DNA of 64,000 nucleotides from Calliopum simillimum. Lineage: Eukaryota; Arthropoda; Insecta; Diptera; Lauxaniidae. Position 1 is the stretch's first letter. Each line of letters begins with the position of its first letter. The stretch covers positions 51,331,061-51,395,060 of the forward strand of contig OX638369.1 of assembly GCA_951812925.1 (NCBI GenBank). Reading direction: 5' to 3'. A program made the translations under genes and the position numbers. The notes under the pieces were generated by a model. It had not been told where the DNA came from. It worked only from the letters and a program-made list of their open reading frames with translations, and made no database searches. Positions 20,815 to 60,828 of this stretch are shown piece by piece.

Positions 20815-21335
20815 AGTATTTTATCATACATAAGTATTTATTTTTTTTTTTAAACTAAGTCACAAGAAGAATCCCAATCGTTAGATGTAGAAAGTAGTGT
20901 TTGAACTTAAAGTATACTCAAAAACTTGTCAAGAAATAAGTTTCCAGTGAAAAATCATGACACAGTGCTAATATAGTAATGCTCTTAAATATAACAAAAT
21001 TCATGGAACTTGTCGGTTTTCCTTAGCTACTGCAATAAACGAAACAATAAGGTCAAAATGTTGCACAATTTTTAACTCTATTCGATTTTATAATCCACTT
21101 CATATAATTGTCTTATGTTGTGTGCTAATGTTATTAAACAATTGCATGGATTTCTAGCATATCGATTACATTAGAAAAAGATATGAGATTTCAATTTACC
21201 AACATTGCCACAATGAACTTTTCTCGCACTAGATTTTTCCCGTCTCTGTGTGTAAGAGGTAAAATAGGATACATATGCCCATTTGTTGAAGTATTTCTGC
21301 AAAAGAAAAATTTGATATGAATGGTAACTATTTAT
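20815..21335. other. No gene seen
   Basis: AT-rich intergenic sequence downstream of the esterase-like gene; nothing recognised. Confidence 0.3.
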
Positions 21336-21501
21336 TAAGAATTTTTAAGTGTGTTACTTAATGATATTTATATATTGAAAATTGATTTTTTAATTGAACT
21401 TTTAGTCATATATTTGCAAAGTTCGATTTACATATAAATCTATCAATGCATTTTCTAACACATAATTATGACAAATCAAGGAACGGATTAAAAACACGGC
21501 T

Positions 21502-21548
21502 ATAGTGGCATATGTTTCGTCTTTGGCCACAAAGACTCATCAGACTAT
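21502..21548 (-). ncRNA. Hammerhead ribozyme-like motif, probably inactive
   Basis: On the minus strand: stem I strand AUAGU, then CUGAUGA, stem II GUCUUUG/CAAAGAC with loop UGGC, then GAAAC, a mini stem III, and the stem I partner ACUAU. All core bases are present. The stem III closing position is C where a U is required (…AUAUGCC… for …AUAUGUC…), so the A15.1-U16.1 pair and the GUC cleavage triplet are lost. This copy probably does not cleave. Confidence 0.7.
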
Positions 21549-21641
21549 TTTTGTTGTAATTATAATTATATTCATTTCACTAAATTAATTATAATTGAAA
21601 AATTACAAGTTTGAAAACTTTTTGTGTTTTTGCCTGGGCGG

Positions 21642-21715
21642 GAGTTGAACCAAGGACCTGCCGGTTGGTAGCAGAAGTCGTTACCACTGCACCAGCCTTG
21701 CCTGGCTGCGAAGTC
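21642..21715 (-). ncRNA. tRNA-like head with consensus A and B boxes
   Basis: The minus-strand segment has TGGTGCAGTGG (A box) and GGTTCAACTCC (B box). A CTGC/GCAG stem sits where an anticodon arm would be. The acceptor and T stems do not pair well, so this is a tRNA-derived promoter, not a tRNA gene. Confidence 0.55.
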
Positions 21716-21725
21716 GACTTTTGCC

Positions 21726-22470
21726 AGTTTTGTTTGTATGTTAATACGTATTGATATATCATAATTGTTGTTTGTGTTATTTATTGATATTTGGTATAGT
21801 TGTTCCTTTGGAACAAATTTAATACCGACTGCAGGTGTTGTTGGTAACTATTTTTATAACTCTCTTTCTATTTGAATCTTTTGTAATAACTTTAATAAAA
21901 ACACTAATATACTGATATCCTAGCTATTGGAAAGTGTTTCGGACTGTTTCTATGATAGACCATTGAAGAATAATTTGTTTGAATTGAAATCCCAGTCGCC
22001 TTTTTTCTCGCGATATGTATTGCATTTTAAGTGTATCTCTTCCAAAATGGTTCCAAGTTTGAAAAAAATAGAACTAGAAAAAATCGTCAATAAAGTTTAG
22101 CGCGCAAAAAATTTAGAATTTTGTTTCCAATAATTTCTTACAATATGTTTAAGTTTAAATAAGTGTACCTTAGAAACTAAATGATTCTACCTTTTAAAAA
22201 GTAATGGACAACATTTTGAGAGTGGGGTGGGTCGCTTACCGTTCAAGCTATCACAAAGTCATGGATTTCAGGCCAGAAAAAATTTATAAACACAGCTTTG
22301 GTTTTCATTCGAATCAAAAGTTTTAAATATGTTAAAAGTATAAAAATGCCGTCGGATAAAAATTTTGAGGCGTTTAATGAGTCGGACACGCCGAATATGC
22401 CAAAATTACGACACAAAAAAATGTATTACCACAGAGTCAAGTTTTGCAGAATTGGTCAATAAAAATATTC
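21726..22470. other. No supported gene
   Basis: AT-rich intergenic sequence with no recognisable coding or repeat structure. Confidence 0.3.
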
Positions 22471-30555: not shown

Positions 30556-30759
30556 TTAAACAAATTTGAACTCCTTTTTAGTATTAGAAACAGGCATTGT
30601 CCTTCGTGATTCCAGCCTTGTTTTGATGAGACCATCTCTTCTTTCTGAATCACATACCGCATCAGCAGCTTCACTAACAATTTTGAAATAATTTCTGTCG
30701 ATATTTGTTTTAATAAAGGCTGCTCTGAGAACACGCCAAATATGTGCAACTGGCAACAC
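30556..30759 (-). other. Unassigned open frame in the hAT-like element
   Basis: A minus-strand frame of 67 codons reads in part AAFIKTNIDRNYFKIVSEAADAV. Its composition is protein-like compared with the surrounding noise, and it may be an exon or fragment of a transposase or captured gene, but I do not recognise a family. The duplicated unit starting at 30727 begins inside it. Confidence 0.25.
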
Positions 30760-30902
30760 TTGTCAGTCACATAATATAACGGTATTGATTCTCAGCCAAT
30801 GGCTGAGCCTTACCAAACAAACACAACATGAATGATGACAAAGGAGTATAGAGAATGAAACCACGCTACATGCATATAGGCACTTAAGCTACCAATTTTT
30901 CC

Positions 30903-30983
30903 GAGGGCACACAGCGCAGTCCGTTGATAAATGCGCTATGTAGAGAGATTGATTTCGAAAGGTTCATAGATCGATCCCGGCCT
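30903..30983 (+). ncRNA. tRNA-like segment with A and B boxes (copy 1)
   Basis: An A-box-like CAGCGCAGTCCG and a B-box-like GATCGATCCC about 50 nt apart. A weaker match than the head at 21642-21715 but in the same position relative to the hammerhead (about 80 nt upstream). It is repeated at about 31435-31515 in copy 2. Confidence 0.4.
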
Positions 30984-31055
30984 CAGACAAAAAGTTCAAA
31001 AAATTTTTCAATTGTTATTTCATTTAATTTAAAATAAATTAAATAAAACATAAAT

Positions 31056-31101
31056 TGGTCTGATGATGGTTACGTGGCGGTAACCGAAACATATGTCACC
31101 A
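31056..31101 (+). ncRNA. Hammerhead ribozyme, minimal type I (copy 1)
   Basis: Order of elements: stem I strand UGGU (31056-31059), core CUGAUGA (31060-31066), an extra U, stem II GGUUAC/GUAACC with loop GUGGCG, core GAAA, mini stem III AC-AUAU-GU (31089-31096), cleavage-site C (31097, a GUC triplet), stem I partner ACCA (31098-31101). All invariant hammerhead bases are present. The two-base-pair stem III is the kind seen in hammerheads of Penelope-like elements and retrozymes. The U between A9 and stem II departs from the common CUGAUGAG form. Confidence 0.8.
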
Positions 31102-31258
31102 TAGCCATGTTCAGTAGTTTTTTCTCTTCTCCTAATTGTCATAATATTCTAAGTTGGAAAATGCATGGAATTTTCGATTCTTGCAAAAACATTGACTAAA
31201 GTTCATAAAATTAGTATAATTTTCATATAGTCAACATAAACCATTTTAAGTAATCATG

Positions 31259-31780
31259 GAGAACACGCCAAATATGTGCAACTGGCAACACTTGTCAGTC
31301 ACATAATATAACGGTATTGATTCTCAGCCAATGGCTGAGCCTTACCAAACAAACACAACATGAATGATGACAAAGGAGTATAGAGAATGAAACCACGCTA
31401 CATGCATATAGGCACTTAAGCTACCAATTTTTCCGAGGGCACACAGCGCAGTCCGTTGATAAATGCGCTATGTAGAGAGATTGATTTCGAAAGGTTCATA
31501 GATCGATCCCGGCCTCAGACAAAAAGTTCAAAAAATTTTTCAATTGTTATTTCATTTAATTTAAAATAAATTAAATAAAACATAAATTGGTCTGATGATG
31601 GTTACGTGGCGGTAACCGAAACATATGTCACCATAGCCATGTTCAGTAGTTTTTTCTCTTCTCCTAATTGTCATAATATTCTAAGTTGGAAAATGCATGG
31701 AATTTTCGATTCTTGCAAAAACATTGACTAAAGTTCATAAAATTAGTATAATTTTCATATAGTCGACATAAACCATTTTA
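31259..31780 (+). repeat. 522-bp direct repeat, copy 2
   Basis: Second copy of the 30727-31248 unit, separated from it by 10 bp. The only difference noticed is 'agtcaacat' against 'agtcgacat' near the end. Cleavage at both hammerheads would release a 532-nt RNA monomer. Confidence 0.9.
31588..31633 (+). ncRNA. Hammerhead ribozyme, minimal type I (copy 2)
   Basis: Identical to the motif at 31056-31101, 532 bp further on: UGGU / CUGAUGA / stem II / GAAAC / AUAU / GUC / ACCA. Predicted cleavage follows base 31629. Confidence 0.8.
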
Positions 31781-31806: not shown

Positions 31807-32721
31807 ATATAAGCATTTCTCAGAACCTTTTAAGCTATAGTTGCCGTCAAGTTTTGATGTCAAACACCTTAGATGCATTTAATTCAAATAGTAATGATTT
31901 TTTGTGAATTTTTTGTGAATGCACATACTTGTGAATGTTTGAACAATATGTCCGCGGGACAATATTCACAAAAAATCATAACTATTTGAATTAAATGCAT
32001 CTAAGGTGTTTGAAATGACACGTGTTTGACGGTTACCGGACATAATCCCAACGGACATAATCTCTACTTCGTAAATGAGGATTATGTCCGAAAATTTTTC
32101 GTTCATAATCCCCATTTTGGTCATGGGGGTTATGTCTGTTAATTTTTCGGATATAATCCCAATAGGGGATATATCCGAAAAATTTAATTAAGATTGAACA
32201 ACATTTTTTCAATAATCCATTTAAAAAATTTATATAGTGTTGGATGTAGTAGACTGATCCGCGGCCGAAGGCCGACGCGAAGCCGGTTTTAGATTTTTGG
32301 GAGTTTTAAATCCTGAGCTGCGGCTGCAGTCCGCCCATTTAACCCTACTCTTATGTAAAATTACTGTGGCTAGCAAACTAGGTGTTGGATATAATATAGA
32401 CTGATTCATGGCCGAAGGCCGTCGCGAAGACTGTATTGGATTTTTGGGAGTTTTAAATCCTGAGCTGCTGTCAATAACAAAATAGGGCGTTAGGAAATAT
32501 CGTTATGGGGATTATGTTCATTTTTTCCTGGGGATTATGTCCGAAACACTTGCGGACATAATCCCCATTTTAGAAATTGGGACTATGTCCGAATTATTGG
32601 CGGACATAATCCCCATTTCGTGAATGGGGATTATGTCCGTGGTGACTATGTCACGGCACCGCGTTTGGCATCAAAATTTGACGACAACTATAGGTTAAAA
32701 GTTTCTGAGAAATGCCCATAT
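31807..32721. mobile_element. Foldback element F (GGACATAATCCCC units)
   Basis: The left end 'tatataagcatttctcagaa' is mirrored at the right by 'ctgagaaatgcccatata'. The inverted match continues through 'ttgccgtcaagttttgatg' and its complement. Inside, a perfect-looking hairpin (about 31859-32015, 'caccttagatgcatttaatt') is followed by repeated 'cggacataatcccc' units in both orientations (about 32035-32660). A duplicated 'gccgaaggccg...gagttttaaatcctgagctg' block lies at about 32245-32320 and 32390-32470. The motif GGCGTTAGGAAATA (32486) is shared with foldback E. No coding capacity. Confidence 0.7.
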
Positions 32722-32794
32722 ACTTACCCGAAAATAAACAACTGTGAACTTGGTTATTGCGAGTTGAAAGTTGTATGTTTTATTCAAACTTTTA

Positions 32795-36530: not shown

Positions 36531-36594
36531 ACAATCTCAGAAATCTCTTAAAGTTAGCAAAATATTATTTGCAAAAAAGTTTTCTCCAAAACTT

Positions 36595-36835
36595 TAAGAA
36601 TTTTTAAGTGTTTTACTTAATGACATTTTACATATAGAAAATTGATTTTTTAATTGAACTTTTAGTCATATATTTTGCAAAGATCGATTTACATATAAAT
36701 CTATCAATGCATTTTCTAACACATAATTATGACAAATCAAGGAACGGATTAAAAACACGGCTATAGTGACATATGTTTCGTCTTTCGCCACAAAGACTCA
36801 TCAGACTATTTTTGTTGTAATTATAATTATATTTA
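36595..36835 (-). mobile_element. Hammerhead-bearing repeat, headless copy
   Basis: Nearly identical to 21336-21560 in the ribozyme and tail, on the minus strand. The tRNA-like head is missing. Instead a TATAATTATAAATA-type microsatellite (about 36815-36925) abuts the ribozyme's 5' side. Confidence 0.75.
36763..36809 (-). ncRNA. Hammerhead ribozyme, minimal type I, apparently intact
   Basis: On the minus strand: AUAGU (stem I), CUGAUGA, stem II GUCUUU...AAAGAC with loop GUGGCG, GAA, mini stem III AC-AUAU-GU, cleavage-site C (GUC), ACUAU (stem I partner). Unlike the copy at 21502-21548 it keeps the required A15.1-U16.1 pair. Stem II begins with G directly after A9, as in the canonical CUGAUGAG form. 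Predicted cleavage lies between 36768 and 36767 (minus-strand order). Confidence 0.8.
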
Positions 36836-36925
36836 TTTATATAATTATAATTATATTTATTTATATAATTATAATTATATTTATTTATATAATTATTTAT
36901 ATAATAAATATAATTATAATTACAG
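36815..36925. repeat. TATAATTATAAATA microsatellite
   Basis: Tandem 'ataattataattatatttattt' units run across about 110 bp, adjoining the hammerhead repeat. Confidence 0.8.
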
Positions 36926-41642: not shown

Positions 41643-42954
41643 CAGGGTGGCTGATTCGAAGTGTTACCAATTCAAAAGACTATATTTTTAGTTTCCATGC
41701 ACAGATTTTATTGATCAAACGCCATAATTGTTGGGAAATGTTCAAATTTTAAGAATCTACTTGAGATTTTTGATATGGTCACCTTTGGCCTTAACTATGG
41801 CCCGTAGACGGTCGAAGAACGAGTCGCATGCTGCACGAATTTGATTTTGTGGAAGTTTGCGCCATTCTCGTTGAAGGGCCACTTTTGGCGCATCAACGCT
41901 CTGGTATTTTTTAGTCAAGACCTTCCTGTTCAACATACCCCAGATTGAGAAATCCAGCGGATTCGCATCAGGCGAATTTGAGAGCCATTGTTGAGCAGAA
42001 ATGAAGCTAGGAACGTTTTTTCTAACCATTCTTGATTCACACGAGCTTTGTGTGACGGTGCCGAGTCTTGTTGGAATGTCCATGGCTTGCGACCGAAATG
42101 TTTGCGTGCCCACGGTAGTAAAGCACCCTCCAACTCTGACTGACGATACACCTGGGCGTTTACTTTGACGCCAGCGGCCAAAAAAACGAGTGGTGAGCGC
42201 CCATCAGCAGTCACTGCAGCCCAAACCATCACATGCAGTGGTGCCTGCGTCCTGGTGGCCAAACGAACATTCAAATTTTCGTAGGACCTCTCTGTCAAGT
42301 AAGCCCGATCATTTTGTTTGTTTACATATTGCTGGATACAGTAATTTTTCTCATCAGAGAAGACAATTTGTGACAGATTTCCGGCGGCATGCAAGCGCAA
42401 CAACTCCTTGGCTCTATCGAGCCTAACTTTTTTTTGAGCAGGAGTGAGATCATGCGCCTTTTGAAACTTGAGGGCCTTTAGTCCGAGCTTGTTTGACAAT
42501 ATGTGTTGCATTCGTTCACGCGATATTTTCAGCTCGGCAGCCATTTGTCTGCCACTGCGTCTCGGATTTCGCTCAATTCTGGCCTTCACCTTTCGAACCA
42601 TTTCTGGTGATGTTGAAGTTATTTTCCGACCACCACCATGTCGTTTGGCAACGCTGCCGGTACCATTGTAACGTGTTATGGTCCGATACACAAACATTTT
42701 ATTCACTTTTAAATGTTTCAGCTCACGAACAATTGCTGGTTTCGATTTTCCAGCCAAATAAAGAGCAATCACACTATTACGTTTGAATTCCATTTCGAAA
42801 ATTTTTTATTTTCAATAAATTGACGCGCAAATGCTTTTGGTTACTTGTTGACAATACAATGAACTAACATCATGCCAATTTTTAGACATCTGTAATGTTC
42901 CATCTGTCAGATAAGTCTATCTGAAGTTGGTAACAGTTCGAATCAGCCACCCTG
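41643..42954 (-). mobile_element. maT-type (DD37D) mariner-like element, nearly complete
   Basis: A 1312-bp element with inverted ends CAGGGTGGCTGATTCGAA (41643) and TTCGAATCAGCCACCCTG (ending 42954), flanked by TA on both sides. The transposase gene lies on the minus strand. It is nested in the hAT-like element 41292-43659, so it is the younger insertion. Confidence 0.9.
41757..42793 (-). pseudogene. maT (DD37D) transposase with a single frameshift
   Basis: About 345 residues. The N-terminus (MEFKRNSVIALYLAGKS) begins a paired HTH DNA-binding region. Catalytic landmarks follow: VFSDEKNY (first D), WTFQQDSAPSHKA (second D), SPDANPLDFSIWG (third D). Counting from the second D to the D of LDFS gives 37 intervening residues, the DD37D spacing of maT elements. 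The frame is open from 42793 to about 42020, then continues in another frame to the stop at 41757. The break coincides with a run of six A (plus-strand T 42016-42021) where seven would restore the frame, so it is a single-base deletion in a homopolymer or a sequencing error. Otherwise the enzyme looks intact, which indicates recent activity. Confidence 0.9.
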
Positions 42955-49424: not shown

Positions 49425-50201
49425 AAAAAGTGTAGTTTATATTTTCATAATTTGTCTGGGATGAGGACAAAATCCAATTCTATTTTCAATTGGACTTCTC
49501 AATCGGATTATGATGTTATTGTTTTTGTTGAAACGTGGCTTAATTCGGATTTTTCTGATGGTGAAGTTTTTGATCAAAATATTTATTTTGTTTATCGTAA
49601 AGAAAGGGATAGTTTCAAAACTGGTCTCACGCGGGGTGGTGGGGTATTGATTACAGTTAAACGTAACTTGTGTTCAGCAGTTTATAATTTGAAGATTTGT
49701 GACACTCTGCTGGACCAACTGTGTGTTGTCATAAAGGACTCCAAAGGTGCTATTTATATACTTATGTGCATCGTATATTACCCCCAATAGCTCTGATGAT
49801 TTATATGCTGCTCATGTTGACAATATTGTTAACTTAGCTGCATTAAGCAATGCGGATAATCAGCTCTGCATATTGGATGACTTCAATATCAGTAAAATTG
49901 TTTGGACTTTTCTTGCCAATGAGTTGATCCCTTCAAATGTAAATCATTCTTATGAGATTAATTTTATAGATAGTTTACTCAGCATAGATTTAATTCAATT
50001 AAATTCATTTTTTAATAAATTAAATAAATTGTTAGATCTCATTTTTGTAACTAATAATTTTAAGGTTCAGGTATTTGAATGCTTATGTCCCGTTTCCCCA
50101 TCGGACTTGCATCATATACCACTTGTTCTAGAGTTTGAGTTTTATGAGTTTTTGCAATATTCACATTCTAGAAATGCATTTAATTTTAAATTATGTGATT
50201 A
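49425..50201 (+). pseudogene. LINE ORF2 endonuclease domain, frame-broken
   Basis: It begins with YFHNLSGMRTKSN, the QNxxGLRTK-type start of the apurinic endonuclease, then VIVFVETWLN (catalytic glutamate region), RGGGVLI, a frame change near 49785, then CILDDFNIS (GDFN block with G changed to D), and LDLIFVTNN and SPSDLHHIPLVLEF (SDHxPL-type block). The frame is open to a stop created by the following insertion at about 50201. Confidence 0.75.
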
Positions 50202-50640
50202 ATTAATTTTTTCAACAAAAATTTAAAAAATAATTTGTGTTTTCCATGAAAATCGAAATGGTCTTATTTCACTAAAACCTTAATAACTTTTTAAAAAATG
50301 ATCCGATTATGCTAAAATTGAACTCCAAATAATTGCAATTAAATACACTATTGAACTAAAATATAAAAATTTTATATATGTATAAGCTACTGGCAAAAAA
50401 ACCGTGTTAAATTTGGCTTAAACACGAAAAAGTGTAAAAAACTACTTGCTCGTTGCTATAACTCAGCCAATTTGAATCGGATCTTAGATATTGGTACACT
50501 TGTTGAAAGTTTAAGAATTTTTCTCTATAATAGTGTAAAAACATACTCGATCGAAAATGGGTTTCTCAATATATGTTCGAAAAAATGGAGCTATAACCTC
50601 AAAAATCGAAAAGGTCGCTTATCTCGAGAACGGAGTGAGC
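50202..50640. mobile_element. Small AT-rich insertion in the LINE
   Basis: The LINE reading frame is interrupted between the end of the endonuclease domain (…NAFNFKLCD) and FLNRDVAACFEFFKDKIF, with about 440 bp of unrelated AT-rich sequence in between. Terminal repeats were not recognised. The boundaries are estimated from the loss and return of LINE-like protein sequence. Confidence 0.4.
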
Positions 50641-50837
50641 TATTTTTAAATAGAGATGTTGCAGCGTGTTTTGAGTTTTTTAAAGATAAAATTTTTCCTA
50701 TATGCAGGGATAATATTCCAATTTCGCAACCAAGTGTGTTCAAGTTACCTTGTTACACTAAAGGTCTAAAAAAGTTAAAAAATCTACGTAGTAAATATAT
50801 TAAGTTATATAATTCCACAAATGATAACACCGTTCGA

Positions 50838-52131
50838 CACAAAAAAAAAAAATCCAAAAAATTCTTAAAGTAGACGTTAAAAAAAAATACCCGTGTCTCG
50901 TGGTTTTTCTCCAGCACGTCACATTTTTTTTTAATCGATTTTTGAAGTTTTTTTTTCCACTGTATATGAAAAAAACAAAAATACCGCATTCTTGTGTTAA
51001 ATCGATGAATTTAACTATATGATCCTTACATCTGAGGTGTATCATGTGTTCAGCAAACTTATGCAGGATATTGCGGGGAATATTTATGTAGAAAATTTTA
51101 ACCCTGCACAACCTCCACATGTGGGTCATTTTTGCCCTTTTCTTAAAATGGTACAAAAATGATACCTAAAACAGGGGAATATTGAGTCAGTATGTGCTAC
51201 AGAAATATTTGCTATTCAATTTCACTACTAGTTGCTGAACACTAAAAAAGCAAAATTTTATCCCGAAAGCAAAAAAAACGTTGAAATCAGTAAGCAGTTC
51301 TAGCAATAAATATTTTCCAAATTTCACCCCACTGTAAAACTCTAAAACTACATTTTAAACAAAACTCGTTCTCACAAGATCTTAACGAAATCACACAAGG
51401 ATCATTTGCCTAGAACACATTAACCCATTATATCCTGTTTTAATGGGTATTTTTGACCCATTTGCCTAGAACACATTAACCCATTATATCCTGTTTTAAT
51501 GGGTATTTTTGACCTCTTTTTCTAAAACTGAGCCACAATGGGTTAAAAATTTTTGCAAAAGTATCCTACAAAAAATTCCACTAAGAGTTGCCAAAGTCGA
51601 AAAATTCGTAAAACTTAAGGTAAGCGCGTCAGGGATGTAATTAAAATGCAATGTGAAAAGTCCTAATTGATTTTAACGATTTTTTTTGGTTTCGGGCTCA
51701 AATTTCGACCTTTACGTGTTTCAAAACTAGTAATGAAATTTTATAGCAAATATTTCTGTAGAACATGCTGACTCAATATTTCCCTTTTTTGGGTGTCATT
51801 TTTGTACCTTTTTAAGAAAAGGGCAAAAATGACCCACATGTGGGGGTCAAACAGGGTTAAAATTTTCTACAACAATATTTCCCGCAATATCCTGCATAAG
51901 TTTGCTCAACACATGATACGCCTCAGATGTAAGGATCATATAGTTAAATTCATCGATTTAACACAAGAATGCGGTATTTTTGGTTTTTTCATATACATAC
52001 AGTGGATAAAAAACTTCAAAAATCGATTAAAAAAAAATGTGACGTGCTGGAGAAAAACCACGAGACACGGGTATTTTTTTTTAACGTCTACTTTAAGAAT
52101 TTTTCGGATTTTCCCATGTGTTTTAAAAAAA
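50838..52131. mobile_element. Foldback element H nested in the LINE
   Basis: Arms of about 330-350 bp mirror each other: 'ttcttaaagtagacgttaaa' at about 50862 and its complement near 52080, 'acccgtgtctcgtggttttt' and its complement, and 'gatccttacatctgagg' and its complement. The sequence GTTCGA occurs on both sides (50832-50837 and 52132-52137), a likely target duplication. The LINE frame before (…NSTNDNT) and after (KYCHYMREFNFLTKF) is continuous when the insert is removed. A tandem duplication of 'gcctagaacacattaaccca' units lies in the middle (about 51408-51510). A related fragment lies at 481-550. Confidence 0.8.
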
Positions 52132-52165
52132 GTTCGAAATTGTTCCACAGTGTAATCAGTATCGA

Positions 52166-53871
52166 TTGAAATATTGTCATTATATGAGGGAATTTAACTT
52201 TTTAACTAAATTTCTTTATAAACAATACATCTTGCGTTCAGAAAAAAATTTAAAACAAAATCCTAAGTCGTTTTGGAACTTTATTCAATCGAAGAGAGAT
52301 GGTTCTTGCATTCCAACAGCCATGTCTTATAATGGTAGCTTTTCAGTTACAATTGAAGACACTGCTAATTTGTTTGCTAACTATTTTAAATCGAATAATG
52401 ATACTGATAGACCTTGGTTTAATGAAGCAATTTTAAGTAGTATTGACTCTTTTTTGGATTTGGGCTCTTTAGTGCTTTCCGAGACTGATATTTTTAATGC
52501 TTTTATTTCTATGAAAAGTTATGTTAAAGTAGATATTGATGGTTCTCATCTGTCTTGCTTATTAAATGTGCTCACGCTTTATCTGGGCCTCTGTGTGATA
52601 TTTTTAATAAATCACTCTCCAATGGCTTATTTATTGATGCCTGGAAAATAGCTTCCATAACACCAGTTTTTAAAAATGGTAATAAAAATGATGTTTCTAA
52701 CTACAGACCAATCTCTAAGCTCTCGAATATCTCTAAGTTATTTGAAAGTATTGTAAGGAATACGTTATTCTTTTTAGTAAAGCGTCATATTTGTCCTGAG
52801 CAGCATGGCTTTGTAGCTGGTAGGTCAACGGTGACAAACTTGTCTATTTTTTCAAAATATTGTATTTCCTCATTTGAACAAGGAAATCAAGTTGATGCAA
52901 TCTATACGGATTTTTCTAAAGCCTTTGATAAGGTGTATCATAATGCTTTTATTGCAAAATTGGCTAAAATGGGTTGCCACTCTGCTTTTTTGGATTGGAT
53001 TAAATCTTACCTTAAAAATAGAAATTGTTTTGTGAAAATTAATAATGTTAAATCTTTTAAATTTGTGGCATCATCAGGTGTAACGCAAGGTAGCATTCTT
53101 GGCCCTCTATTTTTCATTTTATTTATTGATGATGTAAGTAAATATATACAAGTAGCTAAATTTTTACTTTATGCTGATGACTTGAAGTTATTCAGTAAAG
53201 TATCTGGTGGTGGGTGTGCTGTCTCACAGAGTGATCTTAATAATGTGTTTTTATGGAGTAAACAGAATTATTTACCATTGAATATTAATAAATGTTTTTC
53301 CTTGTCATTCTCTAAGCGTAGAAATTGCTTGAGCTCTATCTATTTTCTGTCTGATGTTCCTTTGCAGGTTGTTAATTCAATTCGTGATCTTGGTGTGATT
53401 TTTGACTCTAAGTTCACCTTTGTTGACCATTTAAATTATATAATTCCTAAAGGATATTCTTTACTGGCTTTTGTGCGCAGGAATAGCTCTGACTTTTCAG
53501 ATCCCCATACCTTGTTGTGCCTTTATAGCGCGTTTGTTAGGTCAAGGTTGGAGTATGCTTTATTTATATGGAATCCTTCCTATAATTGTCATTCCTCTAG
53601 ATTGGAACGAATTCAAAAATCGTTCACTAGATTTGCACTTAGGTCTCTAAATTTCGAGGTATCTTTGCCTTTTTATAATGCAAGATGTATGCTTCTCGGT
53701 TCGCAATCCCTTGAATCGAGGAGAAAGATAAGTTCCATTGTCTTTATTCATGACATTATTTCAGGTAAAATTGATTGTACTCCATTATTACAATTAGTTG
53801 AATTCAATATTACGTCAAGAACGTTGCGACATTTCAATTTATTTTATACTCAACTGCATAGAACTCAATAA
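52166..53871 (+). pseudogene. LINE ORF2 reverse transcriptase domain
   Basis: First NPKSFWNFIQSKR and SGLSDTDIFNAF-like linker sequence (52166-52560). Then, after one frame change near 52560, comes a long frame to 53871. RT blocks in order: WKIASITPVFKNGNKNDVSNYRPIS, FVAGRSTVTNL, AIYTDFSKAFDKV (first catalytic D), SGVTQGSILGPLFFILFIDDV, FLLYADDLKLF (YADD, 53170-53181), NKCFSLSFSK and LGVIFDSKFTF. The frame ends near LFYTQLHRTQ and a TAA. The RT core itself is uninterrupted, so the damage is mostly upstream. Confidence 0.85.
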
Positions 53872-54960: not shown

Positions 54961-55870
54961 AAAAAAAAACGAAAAAAACTTTAATATGAGTGCCAGTCGT
55001 TTGAAAAGTTTCATTAAAAAATAAAATAAAGTTATTGTAAGACAATTAAAATAAAATTTAAAAAAAAAAAAAATAAAAAATTAACATTTTTGAACGAGTA
55101 CATTATATGAAATTACAAAAGTTTAATAAATACTTAGTGCTGAAAAAAAATAAATGCACTTAACTAAAAAAAAAAATAAAGTTGCATACAATCATCTTTA
55201 ATTTCATTTGCATTAATATTATAAAATGCATCGATGCCAGCGTTAATAATAAGAAGCAACTGAAAAACCGAGAACGTCTTTCTGCTGATGGTACTTTTGC
55301 TGATGGAATTTTTGCTGAAGAAATTTTTGCAGACAAAATGCCTTCTGATGTCTTCCCGAATTCTTTACGTTGGAACAATATAAGGCCACCATATACGCAT
55401 AAGTATAACATAACCGAGTATATTATGAAGGATTAAAAAAAAAAAAAAAAAATAATAAAAATTTTTTACAAAAAAAAAAAAAAAAATATTTTTAAAAAAA
55501 AAAAGAATTAAAATATAAGTTTTGAAAAACATTATTGAGAAATATTTTTAGTAATAATAACTATAAATTAAGAACACTAAATTTAAAAAAAAAAAAATTA
55601 AGAAAAAAAATTCTTTAAGTTGTAGTTTTTACTTTTGTTTTTAAAATTAATTCAATTAAATTTCTATTATGCTACATATGTATACTTTCATATTCCTATC
55701 TAATTACTTAGTATTTAAGTTTAAACATAATTTTAGAAATTTAATTTAGAAAAATATGAATTTGATCTGCAAATGAGATAAATGTGAGTATTAGAAAAAA
55801 AAAGTCTAAAGAGAAAAAAAAATTAAAAAAAAAACTCATTAAATTTTTATATTAAATAAAATTGAATCAA
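54961..55870 (+). other. A-rich untranslated leader of the LTR element
   Basis: About 900 nt with many A runs. A TTG-started frame at 55182-55436 encodes short repeated ADGTFADGIF-like units but has no usable ATG, so it is not called as a gene. The leader would hold the packaging signal. Confidence 0.6.
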
Positions 55871-57187
55871 ATGTCAAATTTTGATCAAGAAGAATTTAAT
55901 GGATTAGTAACAGAATTTTATAAAATTAAAAAGCGAATTTTGCAAAATCGCCCTATTTCCACTGAAAAAACAAAAATATCAGAATACGTAGAGTTGCTTA
56001 TTGAAACATATAACGCGATTTTGTTATACATAAGTTTGCATACTGAAGATTTGTCTACAGCTACAAAAACAACAATATTCAATCGTATAACACATTGCAG
56101 AGAACTTTTAGTGAAATGTTTTGGCAAATTAAACTGTAAAATTAGAGTACCCCATGATATAGAGTTATGTACATTAATTGAGAGAGAAGTTTTGACAGAG
56201 ACAGACAATGATTCCGAATTTTATAAATCTGGAGACGAATGCGACAGTAAAACGGATCAAGAAAATAATACTACTGATTTAAGAGTTGAATCTAAACACA
56301 ACATGACTGATATTGAGAAAAAAAGAAATTTTATTAGCACTTGTGCTTCAATTATAAGAGAGAATTACGATGGAAATCCACTTGCTCTTGAATCATTTCT
56401 TGACAAAATCGATTTAGTTAGCGAATTAACCGAAGCAGCTTTTAACTCAACTCTTATAGCATTTGTTAAATCTAGACTAGAGGGAAAAGCACGCGAAGCA
56501 CTACCTGAAGATGTTAGTACAATTAATGAAATTAAAATTGCTTTAAGAAATAGGATTAAACCGGATAATTCGAAGGTAGTCGCTGGAAAGATTGCAGCAT
56601 TGCAAATAAAAAATAATAATTATGTAGATTTTGCAAAGCAAGCAGAAGAGCTTGCTGATGCTCTTGAGAGATCATTAGTAATCGAAGGAATTACAAAAAC
56701 TAAAGCTCACGAAATGGCAGTCGAGCAAACAATTAGTATTTGTCGATTGAATACAAAGTCGGATTTAGTAAAAGCCATTCTTGCATCTACTGCATTTACC
56801 GATCCAAAAGACGTAATAGCTAAACTAGTAGTAGAGCAAACGAATGAGTCCAAAGAAAAACAAATTCTAGCCTTTCATTCGCGCAGCTTTAATTCTAATA
56901 ACGGAAATGATTTTAACCAGTTTAGAAATGGTAATAGGTTTTATCGAGGAAACAGTTTTAACCGTGGTAATAATTTTAATCGAGGAAGAAGTTACAACCG
57001 TGGTTATAGTTATAACCGAAGTTTTACCAACAACCCACGAGGTAATCATAATAATAATTTTAGCCGTGGTAAAAATAGATCACACTATAATGGTGTAAAC
57101 AATTCAAATACTGGAAATTCAAGTGTTATGGCTTTAAACGTAGAAGCCCCTCAGCAGGCTCTGTTGGGGGAAGCAAATCAAAATTAG
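55871..57187 (+). CDS. gag, capsid/nucleocapsid polyprotein
   Basis: 438 codons from the first ATG at 55871 (MSNFDQEEFNG). The frame extends 9 nt upstream only by a TTG. The middle is helical and acidic. A capsid-like segment follows (SIIRENYDGNPLALESFLDKIDLV; SRLEGKARE). The C-terminus (about 350-420) is an RG/NR-rich low-complexity region (repeated FNRG, YNRG) that replaces the CCHC zinc knuckle of many Gag proteins and presumably binds RNA. The -1 slippery site lies near the end, at codons 421-423. Complete and intact. Confidence 0.9.
   Translation: MSNFDQEEFNGLVTEFYKIKKRILQNRPISTEKTKISEYVELLIETYNAILLYISLHTEDLSTATKTTIFNRITHCRELLVKCFGKLNCKIRVPHDIELCTLIEREVLTETDNDSEFYKSGDECDSKTDQENNTTDLRVESKHNMTDIEKKRNFISTCASIIRENYDGNPLALESFLDKIDLVSELTEAAFNSTLIAFVKSRLEGKAREALPEDVSTINEIKIALRNRIKPDNSKVVAGKIAALQIKNNNYVDFAKQAEELADALERSLVIEGITKTKAHEMAVEQTISICRLNTKSDLVKAILASTAFTDPKDVIAKLVVEQTNESKEKQILAFHSRSFNSNNGNDFNQFRNGNRFYRGNSFNRGNNFNRGRSYNRGYSYNRSFTNNPRGNHNNNFSRGKNRSHYNGVNNSNTGNSSVMALNVEAPQQALLGEANQN
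57133..57170 (+). promoter_or_regulatory. -1 programmed ribosomal frameshift signal between gag and pol
   Basis: The heptamer T TTA AAC (57133-57139) lies in the exact gag phase required for tandem slippage (X XXY YYZ). A 7-nt spacer (57140-57146) follows, then a stem: CCCC (57147-57150), one bulged U, CAGCAG (57152-57157), loop GCU, CUGUUG (57161-57166), GGGG (57167-57170); ten base pairs, one of them G-U. Slipping back by one puts ribosomes into the pol frame, open from 57091. All standard elements of a -1 frameshift signal are present. Confidence 0.85.
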
Positions 57188-60100
57188 AAACCAAAAATAG
57201 TAGTCAATCGATATATAGCCTCAATTTAAACTATGCCGATTTCATTAGTTTAAATTGTACAGAAACAATTAAAACAAATACTTTTCTGGTCGACTCACAA
57301 GCCGATATATCGATAATTAAAAATTCATGTTTAATGGCAGGAGTTGAAATAAATGAAAATAACAAAATAAATATTACTGGCGTTACAAATAGCACTATTT
57401 TGACTTTAGGCACCATATGTACTAATTTATCTATTCAAAATTTTTTAATTCCACAAAATTTCCATGTTGTTGACGATAATTTTAATATTCCTTCTGACGG
57501 TATACTTGGCAAAGACTTTTTAAAATCAAATAAATGTCTTATTAATTACGAAAGCATGTCAATTTCATTTTGGCTTTCTAATTGCAAAATTATAATTCCT
57601 ATCTCGTATGGCATAAGTTATAATACTTGCTTTATACCGCCAAGGTGTGAAGTTTTTAGAGTTTTTCAATTGAAAAATATTACGGAACCTATATTTATAG
57701 ATTCGCAAGAAGTTTCTGATGGGATATTTATTGGGAAATGCATTGTTGATTCAAACACACCAATGTTACGTGTTGTTAATACAACCAACGAAACTAAATG
57801 CATCAAAAATTGTAATATTAAAATCGAAAAATTACAAAACTATAACATATACTCCATTAATGATGTCAAATTAAAGAACGAACGCGTATCAAAGTTAAAA
57901 AATGCCTTAGAGAATCAAATGCCAGACGATGTAAGAGAAGAATTATTGCAACTATGCGAACAATATGCTGACGTTTTTGCTTTGAAAGATGACAAAATGA
58001 CCATCAACAATTTTTATGAGCAAAAACTGAGACTAAATGATTCTTCACCAGTTTACATCAAAAACTATAGGTTGCCCCATACACAAAAAACCGAAATTAA
58101 CAGACAAGTTCAAAACCTCTTGCAAAATGACATGATTGAGCCGAGCAGTTCGAACTACAATAGTCCTTTAATCTTAGTCCCAAAGAAGAGCGTTAATGAT
58201 AAAACATCTTACCGAATGTGTGTCGATTTTAGGGCGGTAAATAAAAAACTTGTGGCAGATAAATTTCCACTTCCACGTATTGACGATATCCTAGACAATC
58301 TTGGAAGGGCAAAATACTTTTCGGTAATTGATCTATTTTCGGGCTTTCATCAAATTCCTTTGCATTCACACTCACGAGATATTACATCTTTTAGTACAGA
58401 CCGAGGCGCTTTTCGCTGGAAAGTCTTACCATTTGGGTTAAACATTGCTCCGAATTCGTTTTCTAGAATGATGAGCATTGCATTTTCTGGACTTGCTCCA
58501 AATCAGGCATTCTTATACGTTGATGATATAATTGTTATAGGCTGTAGTAAAAAACATCACTTTAAAAATTTAACAAACGTATTTGATGTTTTCCGGAAAT
58601 ATAATTTAAAAATTAATCCATATAAATGCAATTTCTTTCGACCTGAAGTTACATTTTTGGGTCATAAGTGCACTTCAAATGGTCTCTTACCTGATGATTC
58701 TAAGATCAAAGCTATACAAAATTACAATATTCCAAACGATAAAGATGCAGTTAAGCGATTTGTAGCATTTGCGAATTATTACCGAAGATTTATACCTAAC
58801 TTTGCTACGTTAGCAGCACCATTGAATTTTTTAACTCGTAAAAACGCAAAATTTAATTGGAATGAAAATTGCCAAGAGTCCTTTGAAATACTTAAATCAA
58901 ACCTAGTTTCTCCGAAATTATTGCAATTTCCAAATTTTGACAAAAAATTTATAATTACAGTAGATGCATCCAAAACTGGATGTGGTGCAGTTTTAAGTCA
59001 GGATTTTAACGGAAATGATTTACCTATATATTTTGCATCTAAATCTTTTAACAAATCAGAACAGAAAAAACCGATCATTGAATTAGAGTTACTGGCTATA
59101 CATTACGCAATCAAACAATTTCGACCGTACGTATACGGAACTGAATTTACTGTTAGGTCAGATCACCGACCATTAGTATACTTATTTAATATCAAAGACC
59201 CTTCGTCAAAGCTAACGAGGATTCGATTAGAACTTTCAGAATATAATTTCTCAATAGAATACATCAAAGGCAAAAATAATGTTGCCGCTGATGCGCTATC
59301 ACGGATTTCAATTGACGAATTGAAAAAAGTGAACCAAAAACTTATTGCAGTGACAACTCGAGCAATGTCTAAGCAAAATTCTGAACAAACTGAGACAGTA
59401 AATTTACCCAACCAAGATATAAGCATAGATAAAGTTCCCATATATGACAAATTCTCTCATGAGTTTAACAAGAAAATTTCTAGAATCAGATCTGAATTAT
59501 TTTATTCAAATGATAAATTAACTAATATGCGCATTAATATTATTAATAAATTTAAAATTATACTAAAAGTGAATATTATGATTGTTAACAAAACATTAAA
59601 TTTAGAGGACATGCTTTTGAGGCTACAATTAGAAGCCAACAATCATAACATTCATGTTTTAGAATGGCCAAAAAATGATATATTTTTTACAATTTGTACG
59701 ATACAAAATCTTAAAGAACGTGGTAATAAAACACTAAAAAATTTGGAAATTATTTTAACTGATCCTATAGAGACAGTACTAGATGTAAACAAAAGACATA
59801 CACTTATGGAAATTTATCACAATGATCCAATCTTAGGAGGACATTGTGGACGTAAAAGATTATACGCAAAAATAAGGACTAAATACTATTGGAAGAATAT
59901 GACGAAAGATATAGCCTCTTTTATTAAAAATTGCGAAAAATGTACTTTAAATAAAGTAAAAGCCGGAACTAAAGAAGAAATGATATTGACTCCAACACCA
60001 GTCAAGCCTTTTGACGTTGTTGTATTAGACACTATTGGTCCATTCCAGGAATCTAACTGTGGGAATAAGTATGCGTTAACTTTAATTTGTGACTTCACAA

Positions 60101-60828
60101 AATATCTGGTAACAATATCCATACCGGATAAAAGCGCCAATACTGTTGCTCGTGCAATTTTTGAAAATTTCATTTTAGTATACGGTATGATAAAGTCAAT
60201 AAAATCGGATTTAGGAACTGAATTTAAAAACCAAGTCTTAAATGAGCTTTGCAAATTTCTCCATATAGACCAAAACTTTTCAACTGCTTTTCATCATGAA
60301 ACTGTTGGAACAGTTGAACGCAATCATAGAGTATTCAATGAATACCTAAGAGCGTTTGCCAATGAAAATCTACTCGATTGGGATATTTATCTTAAATATT
60401 TCACATTTTTTCACAATACATCATCAAATACAGCTTTTGCGAATAAATTTACTCCTTTTGAACTAGTATTTGGAAAAAATGCAACTTTGCACCATGATAT
60501 AAAACAGCAATCAATAGATCCAATTTATAATATAGAAAATTACAGTAAAGAAGTTAAATACCGACTACAAAAAACACATATTTTAGCGAAAGATTTGATT
60601 GAGAAAGAAAAATTAAGGAACAAAGATTTATATGATAAATTTGCAAAACCTCTTTCATTGAAACTTAATGATAATGTTTTAATACAAAAACAACCCTATG
60701 ATAAGCACAAAAGTATTTACGAGGGACCATATGTTGTAAAAAGCATTGACGGTGTTAATGTTACAGTTTACGACAAAACTTCAAACAAAGAAAAAACCAT
60801 TCATAAAAATAGAATACGAATAGCTTGA
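57139..60828 (+). CDS. pol, protease-reverse transcriptase-RNase H-integrase
   Basis: Open from 57091 through 60828; expressed from the slip site as a Gag-Pol fusion (first pol codon 57139). The first internal ATG (57334) lies inside the protease and is not the natural start. Domains: aspartic protease with VDSQAD (57289-57306) in place of DTGA; reverse transcriptase with YRMCVDFRAVNK, VIDLFSGFHQIPL and the YVDD box (58516-58527); RNase H with TVDASKTGCGA (D at 58963) and SDHRPL; integrase with an HHCC finger (H 59818, H 59842, C 59932, C 59941) and catalytic D (60028), D (60208), E (60316), spacing D59D35E; a GPYxV module near the end (YEGPYVV). No stop or frameshift is seen. Confidence 0.92.
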   Translation, partial: RRSPSAGSVGGSKSKLETKNSSQSIYSLNLNYADFISLNCTETIKTNTFLVDSQADISIIKNSCLMAGVEINENNKINITGVTNSTILTLGTICTNLSIQNFLIPQNFHVVDDNFNIPSDGILGKDFLKSNKCLINYESMSISFWLSNCKIIIPISYGISYNTCFIPPRCEVFRVFQLKNITEPIFIDSQEVSDGIFIGKCIVDSNTPMLRVVNTTNETKCIKNCNIKIEKLQNYNIYSINDVKLKNERVSKLKNALENQMPDDVREELLQLCEQYADVFALKDDKMTINNFYEQKLRLNDSSPVYIKNYRLPHTQKTEINRQVQNLLQNDMIEPSSSNYNSPLILVPKKSVNDKTSYRMCVDFRAVNKKLVADKFPLPRIDDILDNLGRAKYFSVIDLFSGFHQIPLHSHSRDITSFSTDRGAFRWKVLPFGLNIAPNSFSRMMSIAFSGLAPNQAFLYVDDIIVIGCSKKHHFKNLTNVFDVFRKYNLKINPYKCNFFRPEVTFLGHKCTSNGLLPDDSKIKAIQNYNIPNDKDAVKRFVAFANYYRRFIPNFATLAAPLNFLTRKNAKFNWNENCQESFEILKSNLVSPKLLQFPNFDKKFIITVDASKTGCGAVLSQDFNGNDLPIYFASKSFNKSEQKKPIIELELLAIHYAIKQFRPYVYGTEFTVRSDHRPLVYLFNIKDPSSKLTRIRLELSEYNFSIEYIKGKNNVAADALSRISIDELKKVNQKLIAVTTRAMSKQNSEQTETVNLPNQDISIDKVPIYDKFSHEFNKKISRIRSELFYSNDKLTNMRINIINKFKIILKVNIMIVNKTLNLEDMLLRLQLEANNHNIHVLEWPKNDIFFTICTIQNLKERGNKTLKNLEIILTDPIETVLDVNKRHTLMEIYHNDPILGGHCGRKRLYAKIRTKYYWKNMTKDIASFIKNCEKCTLNKVKAGTKEEMILTPTPVKPFDVVVLDTIGPFQESNCGNKYALTLICDFTKYLVTISIPDKSANTVARAIFENFILVYGMIKSIKSDLGTEFKNQVLNELCKFLHIDQNFSTAFHHETVGTVERNHRVFNEYLRAFANENLLDWDIYLKYFTFFHNTSSNTAFANKFTPFELVFGKNATLHHDIKQQSIDPIYNIENYSKEVKYRLQKTHILAKDLIEKEKLRNKDLYDKFAKPLSLKLNDNVLIQKQPYDKHKSIYEGPYVVKSIDGVNVTVYDKTSNKEKTIHKNRIRIA

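Follow-up and report, generated by a model that had tools for sequence, protein, structure and literature searches.

The 64,000-nt stretch of the Calliopum simillimum genome analysed here (the window) contains a 532-nt unit repeated in tandem, with a predicted hammerhead ribozyme and a tRNA-like stretch in each copy. Two questions arise from this arrangement: what kind of element the dimer represents, and by what mechanism it came to be inserted. An earlier note on this DNA had proposed a retrozyme, or a SINE carrying a ribozyme and transcribed from a tRNA-type head.

Organisation of the tandem array

The array occupies positions 30727-31780 and comprises 1.98 copies of the unit with one mismatch between them. 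Its direct copies (30727-31248 and 31259-31780) are offset by 532 nt, and the mismatch lies at 31233/31765, in agreement with the duplication at this offset and the roughly one difference first reported. The interval originally given, 30903-31780, does hold the tandem duplication; its start is misplaced, leaving out the first 176 nt of the array. There is no reading frame of 150 aa in the array, and the unit is mostly 530-533 nt long across the genome copies listed. As a closed RNA of 532 nt, it is predicted to be more folded than 60 shuffled sequences (z -4.7). The pairing of the hairpin at 31313-31346 is kept through three compensatory changes between dimer and relative, a weak signal, since 65 of 500 shuffles equal it; the 86-nt pieces that hold the hairpin have folding z-scores of -2.5 and -2.6.

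As for its surroundings, the dimer adjoins MITE-like fold-back inverted repeats at 31857-32016 and 32030-32722, which give matches to plant miRNAs under the Rfam cut-offs. By eye, the window also holds a LINE-like frame (49735-53871), a Gypsy-like frame (55856-60828) and a mariner-like frame (41930-42805). In a protein search, the relatives with a named source came mostly from insects, at 44-48% identity, and closer ones reached 82%.

Table 1. Positions of the array, its parts and its relatives in the window.
Feature	Position	Strand	Remarks
Retrozyme array	30727..31780	+	1.98 units, single arm, ends at the fixed 3' end of the family
Complete unit	31249..31780	+	Numbered q1-q532
Predicted type I hammerhead, copy 1	31047..31111	+	Cut expected between 31097 and 31098
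Predicted type I hammerhead, copy 2	31579..31643	+	Cut expected between 31629 and 31630
Degenerate tRNA-like stretch	30903..30985 (copy 2: 31435-31517)	+	A-box-like 30912, B-box-like 30969, by eye
T5 run between B box and hammerhead	31004..31008	+	
Two hairpins	31282..31346 (copy 1: 30750-30814)	+	Just downstream of the reverse transcriptase (RT) start on the circle
Second RT start zone	31745..31755 (q497-507)	+	Here the arm without a tail has its outer end in 27 of the 28 two-arm insertions
Tail, ending at the sharp RT start q532	31756..31780	+	Each of the 28 two-arm insertions has it on one arm and not on the other
Related single-unit element	21334..21841	-	12-bp target duplications 21322-21333 / 21842-21853
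Hammerhead of the 21 kb relative	21493..21555	-	Cut-site GUC now GCC
tRNA-like stretch of the 21 kb relative	21630..21698	-	ARAGORN, relaxed threshold: tRNA-Leu-like, imperfect arms
5'-truncated relative, lacking the 5' part	36594..36858	-	
Hammerhead of the 36 kb relative	36754..36816	-	Core intact; RF00163 below cut-off

The hammerhead and its conservation

Each unit holds the predicted parts of a hammerhead, namely CUGAUGA, a six-pair stem II with the loop GUGGCG, GAAA, a minimal stem III and GUC, and the cuts that had been expected after 31097 and 31629 agree with the predicted ribozymes. A strict pattern places the cores at 31060 and 31592 (two matches, against 0.01 expected), and a generic hammerhead descriptor gives three matches in the window, against 0.017 per shuffled window (60 Markov-1 windows). 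For the dimer copy the predicted fold is the hammerhead, at an ordinary energy (z -1.1; 30 of 200 shuffles equally good); for two relatives in the window the minimum-energy fold differs from it.

In the dimer hammerhead, CUGAUGA is followed by an additional U, and stem III is very short. An extra nucleotide in this place is reminiscent of a viroid hammerhead. Stem III, ACAUAUGU, is self-complementary, and is computed to gain no stability as a hairpin and -7.0 kcal/mol as a duplex between two units. It is similar to that of amphibian retrozymes, for which a weak stem III with a palindromic loop, and dimeric cleavage, have been reported (PMC7229834, in part). In addition, the GGC of loop II could pair with the GCC on the 3' side of the stem I loop, as modelled here; both triplets are invariant among the copies compared.

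The two relatives lie on the minus strand, at 21334-21841 and approximately 36594-36858; over the part they share, their similarity is about 68-69%. The fold is kept in both through five compensatory pair changes, four in stem II and one in stem I, and 98.4% of the cells in the hammerhead alignment pair, against 28-50% with the partners slid, where the structure was named from the dimer copy and the result amounts to a single comparison between two lineages. Because its cut-site GUC has become GCC, the hammerhead of the 21 kb relative is probably dead, to judge by its sequence. Elsewhere in the genome, tandem copies resembling the 21 kb element, spaced at about 471 nt, lie next to a GIY-YIG frame (L072, G000:C118). 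The core is intact in 128 of 131 genome copies of the family.

The whole window gave no Rfam match at the gathering score, and the dimer copy matched no Rfam hammerhead family even at E<=10. The covariance-model check called for in the earlier note thus left the dimer copy unmatched, and found a relative only below threshold: the 36 kb element scores 21.5 bits with RF00163 (cut-off 34; E 0.0024 in 101 nt). The R1 covariance model matched the four known copies in the window and nothing else at E<0.3. Scans of viral contigs gave no match, and a scan of genome contigs gave 15 prokaryotic loci, all of which have at most three contiguous stem II pairs and at most two stem I pairs by the core; beside the core, the window relatives have six stem II pairs and 4-5 stem I pairs.

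The tRNA-like stretch

The A- and B-box-like sequence that had been noticed upstream of the hammerhead is indeed present, at a distance of about 80-135 nt, and is degenerate in the dimer copy. No tRNA was found by default ARAGORN anywhere in the window; at the relaxed threshold a plausible cloverleaf was returned for the 21 kb relative only, and none in the dimer copy. The stretch nevertheless occupies the same place in both, which are diverged members of the family. Together with the 12 bp of target DNA duplicated around the 21 kb relative, and the precedent of the tRNA-Gln-like SINEs of schistosomes (PMC2770079, in part), this shared position would suit a Pol III-transcribed, tRNA-derived SINE with a hammerhead, akin to Sm-alpha and mobilised by a LINE.

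Runs of T are known to stop Pol III. Such runs lie between the B box and the hammerhead both in the dimer (Table 1) and in the 21 kb relative (T4 at 21617, T5 at 21602), so that a Pol III transcript is expected to be short and to end before the ribozyme. Moreover, the tRNA-like stretch is internal to the unit and not at its 5' end, and the two-arm insertions described below, with one arm tailed, fit products of the Penelope-like kind and not of the LINE kind. A SINE origin is therefore very improbable, and the idea of a tRNA-type head from which Pol III reads through both copies is not supported: the stretch is internal and degenerate, and the T runs precede the hammerhead. As far as its sequence indicates, the tRNA-like part is not a classical SINE head, and a role in the RNA itself is favoured.

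Copy number and insertion footprint

In the assembly (690,472,685 bases in 334 contigs were searched), the family is present at high copy number, the genome count proposed at the outset amounting to at least 203 matching stretches from the best 40 of 1379 candidates. Among the matches listed, most are 98-100% identical and a few short ones 93-97%. The window and 38 other loci among these matches were taken as a sample, giving 39 loci and 40 insertions, two of them contributed by L025; L024, a complex locus in which a second element is nested, was set aside, leaving 39 insertions to be counted, and was kept in the means of unit differences and in the count of hammerhead cores. The second "arm" of L054, a stray match of 20 nt, was dropped from the two-arm set.

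Two arms are present in 28 of the 39 insertions and one arm in 11, for a total of 67 arms. The layout of the two-arm insertions is the same in 28/28: the minus arm is on the left and the plus arm on the right, with the 5'-truncated ends meeting and the 3' ends facing outward. One arm always ends at q531-532 and its partner at q472-507, the partner falling within q497-507 in 27 insertions and at q472 in the other. The tail is 25-35 nt long in 27 of the 28, and the tailed arm is the left one in 14 and the right one in 14. The 3' end of the family is thereby fixed and its 5' end free: around the circle, the arms have uniformly distributed inner ends (67 arms; KS p=0.46), only one of which lies within 5 nt of the ribozyme cut.

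Of the 39 insertions, 29 lie between target duplications of 10 bp or more (all 28 with two arms and one of the 11 with one arm), against 4 of 400 mispaired flanks in the control. Where present, they are 11-17 bp long, mostly 13-15 bp, with a mode of 14. The ten one-arm insertions without a duplication are the dimer in the window, both insertions of L025, and L026, L047, L052, L058, L054, L056 and L060, the last three of which border N runs. The flanks of the insertions contain 25% GC, against about 0.32 in the window. Overlap with the duplication averages 3.7 nt at the tail-less end and 0.75 nt at the tailed end (Wilcoxon p 1.5e-4); the second RT start therefore seems to be set by pairing with the target, and the first not. 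Insertion into AT-rich targets, priming from both ends and two internal RT starts, one for each target end, are the features that mark Penelope-type insertion, and all were found here.

At the central junctions, 22 of the 28 two-arm insertions show an overlap of 1-8 bp, two show none and four hold 1-18 unexplained nt. These overlaps are consistent with microhomology joining, and those of 1-2 bp may be due to chance. Self-primed snap-back, as proposed for Penelope (PMC3846280, in part), was rejected: the arms end at different unit positions in 28/28, so there is no long palindromic centre. An LTR retrozyme or TRIM was likewise rejected, given duplications of 11-17 bp and not 4-5 bp, and continuous tandem units in place of an LTR-internal-LTR arrangement.

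Homogeneous tandem units might also be expected of plain satellite DNA, generated by unequal crossing-over or by DNA rolling circles. One locus of the sample does record a later DNA duplication, as the same retrozyme insertion occurs twice at L025, 4.66 kb apart and with shared flanks, indicative of a segmental duplication. However, target duplications at 29 of 39 insertions, a single fixed 3' end and inverted arms all speak against such an origin, which is the least probable of those considered here, and crossing-over as the source of a satellite was rejected in view of the precision of the target duplications.

Penelope-like machinery

The genome holds candidates for the machinery that such a footprint would call for, with at least 51 GIY-YIG matches from the best 150 of 209 candidates. 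One frame of 841 aa combines RVT_1 and GIY-YIG, and a hammerhead core follows 149 nt past its end. Among the Penelope-type loci sampled, 6 of 30 have a descriptor hammerhead bearing the same extra U, with none in the shuffled control. Penelope-type frames followed by extra-U hammerheads were seen at L092:838-3679 (G000:C5), L074, L076, L081 and L088-L090, and stem III is very short or palindromic in these ribozymes. None of the 30 sampled loci, nor L092, carries the 3' end of the retrozyme family (R0).

Where GIY-YIG matches (among the at least 51) are neighbours within 5 kb, four pairs are head-to-head, two in tandem and none tail-to-tail. The two head-to-head pairs examined of these four, L082+L083 and L084+L085 (G000:C2), have duplications of 13 and 15 bp, and both have a tail of 34-35 nt on one arm, a length that holds once the duplication is set aside (24-25 nt by raw BLAST ends). 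Similarly, Penelope copies from Adineta form head-to-head inverted repeats with duplications and a 31-bp tail on one copy (PMC3846280, in part).

The purified Penelope-like enzyme of Anolis acts at AT-rich DNA, where it cuts both strands and extends them, and uses two internal start sites on its RNA with a "tail" between them (PMC11167929). In that system the starts are alike on both strands, and the start has no homology to the cut DNA, whereas the retrozyme insertions show one start per side, the second overlapping the target. The Anolis enzyme worked mainly on uncut RNA and did not require the hammerhead, and its mRNA is presumed to contain several copies (PMC11167929).

The template of each insertion

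Of the 67 arms, 60 run through the ribozyme cut. More than one unit is present in 44 and more than two in 17, and the longest measures 8.06 units. With all pieces oriented to the sense strand, mismatch at eight informative sites (two of them A-run length variants) was 0.9% within arms (9/982), 1.9% between the arms of one insertion (8/418) and 23.5% between loci (12750/54266). Of 39 groups, 34 had no informative mismatch within arms, and of the 27 two-arm loci that could be compared, 22 had none between arms; 0 of 2000 permutations of the partner arm matched the observed likeness. Mean unit differences, also sense-oriented, follow the same order: 0.96 within an arm, 2.0 between arms and 4.1 between loci. 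Since each insertion carries one variant and the cut is crossed, the template was one RNA sequence joined across the cut, either a closed circle or a multimer whose identical units had not been cut apart. Arms that cross the cut suggest that this RNA was probably circular.

The behaviour of the Anolis enzyme, for which uncut RNA suffices, means that an uncut linear multimer from an existing array could have served as the template, with mobilisation still of Penelope type and the hammerhead dispensable for copying. Source arrays are homogeneous, and homogeneous new arrays would be expected from them on this account, to which the multi-copy mRNA inferred for Anolis lends further weight (PMC11167929). 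Yet arms that cross the cut so regularly, and for up to eight units, would demand a hammerhead that fails to cut despite its nearly universal intact core. An unsystematic look also noticed no flank of a source array at the junctions, four of 28 of which hold the unexplained nucleotides mentioned above. A linear multimer is thus unlikely to have been the template, though less so than either the SINE or the satellite origin.

The designation "retrozyme" made in the earlier note gains from several observations: the units are in tandem, the hammerhead core is intact, the copy number is high, target duplications are present and arms extend across the cut. That the family of the dimer is a retrozyme family is therefore well supported.

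A model for insertion

Taken as a whole, we consider it probable that the dimer is an animal retrozyme insertion made by a Penelope-like enzyme, likely from circular RNA, with priming from both target ends. The dimer would represent one insertion of a non-autonomous retrozyme family, whose hammerhead would cut the RNA, which would then close into a 532-nt circle. A Penelope-like reverse transcriptase/GIY-YIG endonuclease, suggested by the insertion footprint, would break AT-rich DNA with a stagger of about 14 nt. One end of the target would prime cDNA at a fixed internal position of the RNA, q532, while the other, through a few pairing bases, would prime some 25-35 nt further upstream, on an RNA identical in sequence. 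Each enzyme would travel over 0.1 to 8 units of RNA, yielding tandem copies, and could stop anywhere, after which the two cDNA ends would be joined head to head. At 1.98 units, the dimer would be a product with a single arm, which accounts for the 10-nt "spacer" between its direct copies. The hairpins at 31282-31346 are a candidate RT-binding site.

Relation to known elements

Animal non-LTR retrozymes resemble this family in several respects: their hammerhead is of type I, its stem III being very short and the loop palindromic, their tandem units are small, their GC content is low, their target duplications exceed 4 bp, and they coexist with Penelope-like elements (PMC7229834, in part). Their units are about 170-400 nt, as against 532 nt with a tRNA-like stretch here (PMC7229834, in part), although ribozyme circles of 150 to more than 1000 nt appear in the 2020 discussion of that paper (PMC7229834, in part). 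Insect retrozyme-like repeats and the Penelope hypothesis have been published already (PMC7229834, in part). An insertion footprint of two arms, one tail and one template was not met with there (PMC7229834, in part), and the words "inverted" and "head-to-head" are absent from the main text of that paper. Among the titles and openings of abstracts listed in literature searches, none mentions two-armed single-template retrozyme insertions or an insect retrozyme with a tRNA-like stretch, which is not proof of novelty.

The resemblance to Penelope-like elements is close: the family has in common with them the hammerhead, head-to-head arms, a tail on one arm, an internal RT start and AT-rich targets (PMC11167929; PMC3846280, the latter in part); it differs in lacking a protein frame, in its far shorter unit and in having up to 8 units per arm. 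The strict use of one start per side and the target overlap of the second start are features of this family, undescribed for the Anolis enzyme (PMC11167929). The schistosome elements Sm-alpha and Sj-alpha also combine a tRNA-like stretch with a type I hammerhead at high copy number and are described as SINE-like (PMC2770079, in part). Helenus, a tRNA-like TRIM, likewise carries its tRNA-like stretch within a direct repeat and is a non-autonomous retroelement (PMC10886601, in part). It is, however, an LTR element with PBS and PPT and with 4-bp duplications in animals, unlike the retrozyme, with its ribozyme and duplications mostly of 13-15 bp (PMC10886601, in part).

Implications for retrozyme biology

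A broader reading, whose chances we put somewhat below even, is that animal retrozymes are parasites of Penelope-like elements: a single ribozyme circle would be copied in rolling-circle fashion by target-primed reverse transcription, from both ends of a staggered cut and at two starts, the conserved hairpins just past the start would mimic the Penelope binding site, and the tRNA-like module would serve the circle, for instance by aiding ligation or the recruitment of RT and not by directing Pol III transcription. Both the mobiliser of animal retrozymes and the use of the circle as template have so far been a proposal (PMC7229834; PMC7761336, each in part), and the later steps by which Penelope-like enzymes use both DNA ends have yet to be validated (PMC11167929). 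The insertions described here record the steps of the process base by base, from the identity of the template and its start sites to the number of turns and the joining of the ends, and they provide dozens of natural products with which the use of both DNA ends by Penelope-like enzymes can be tested.
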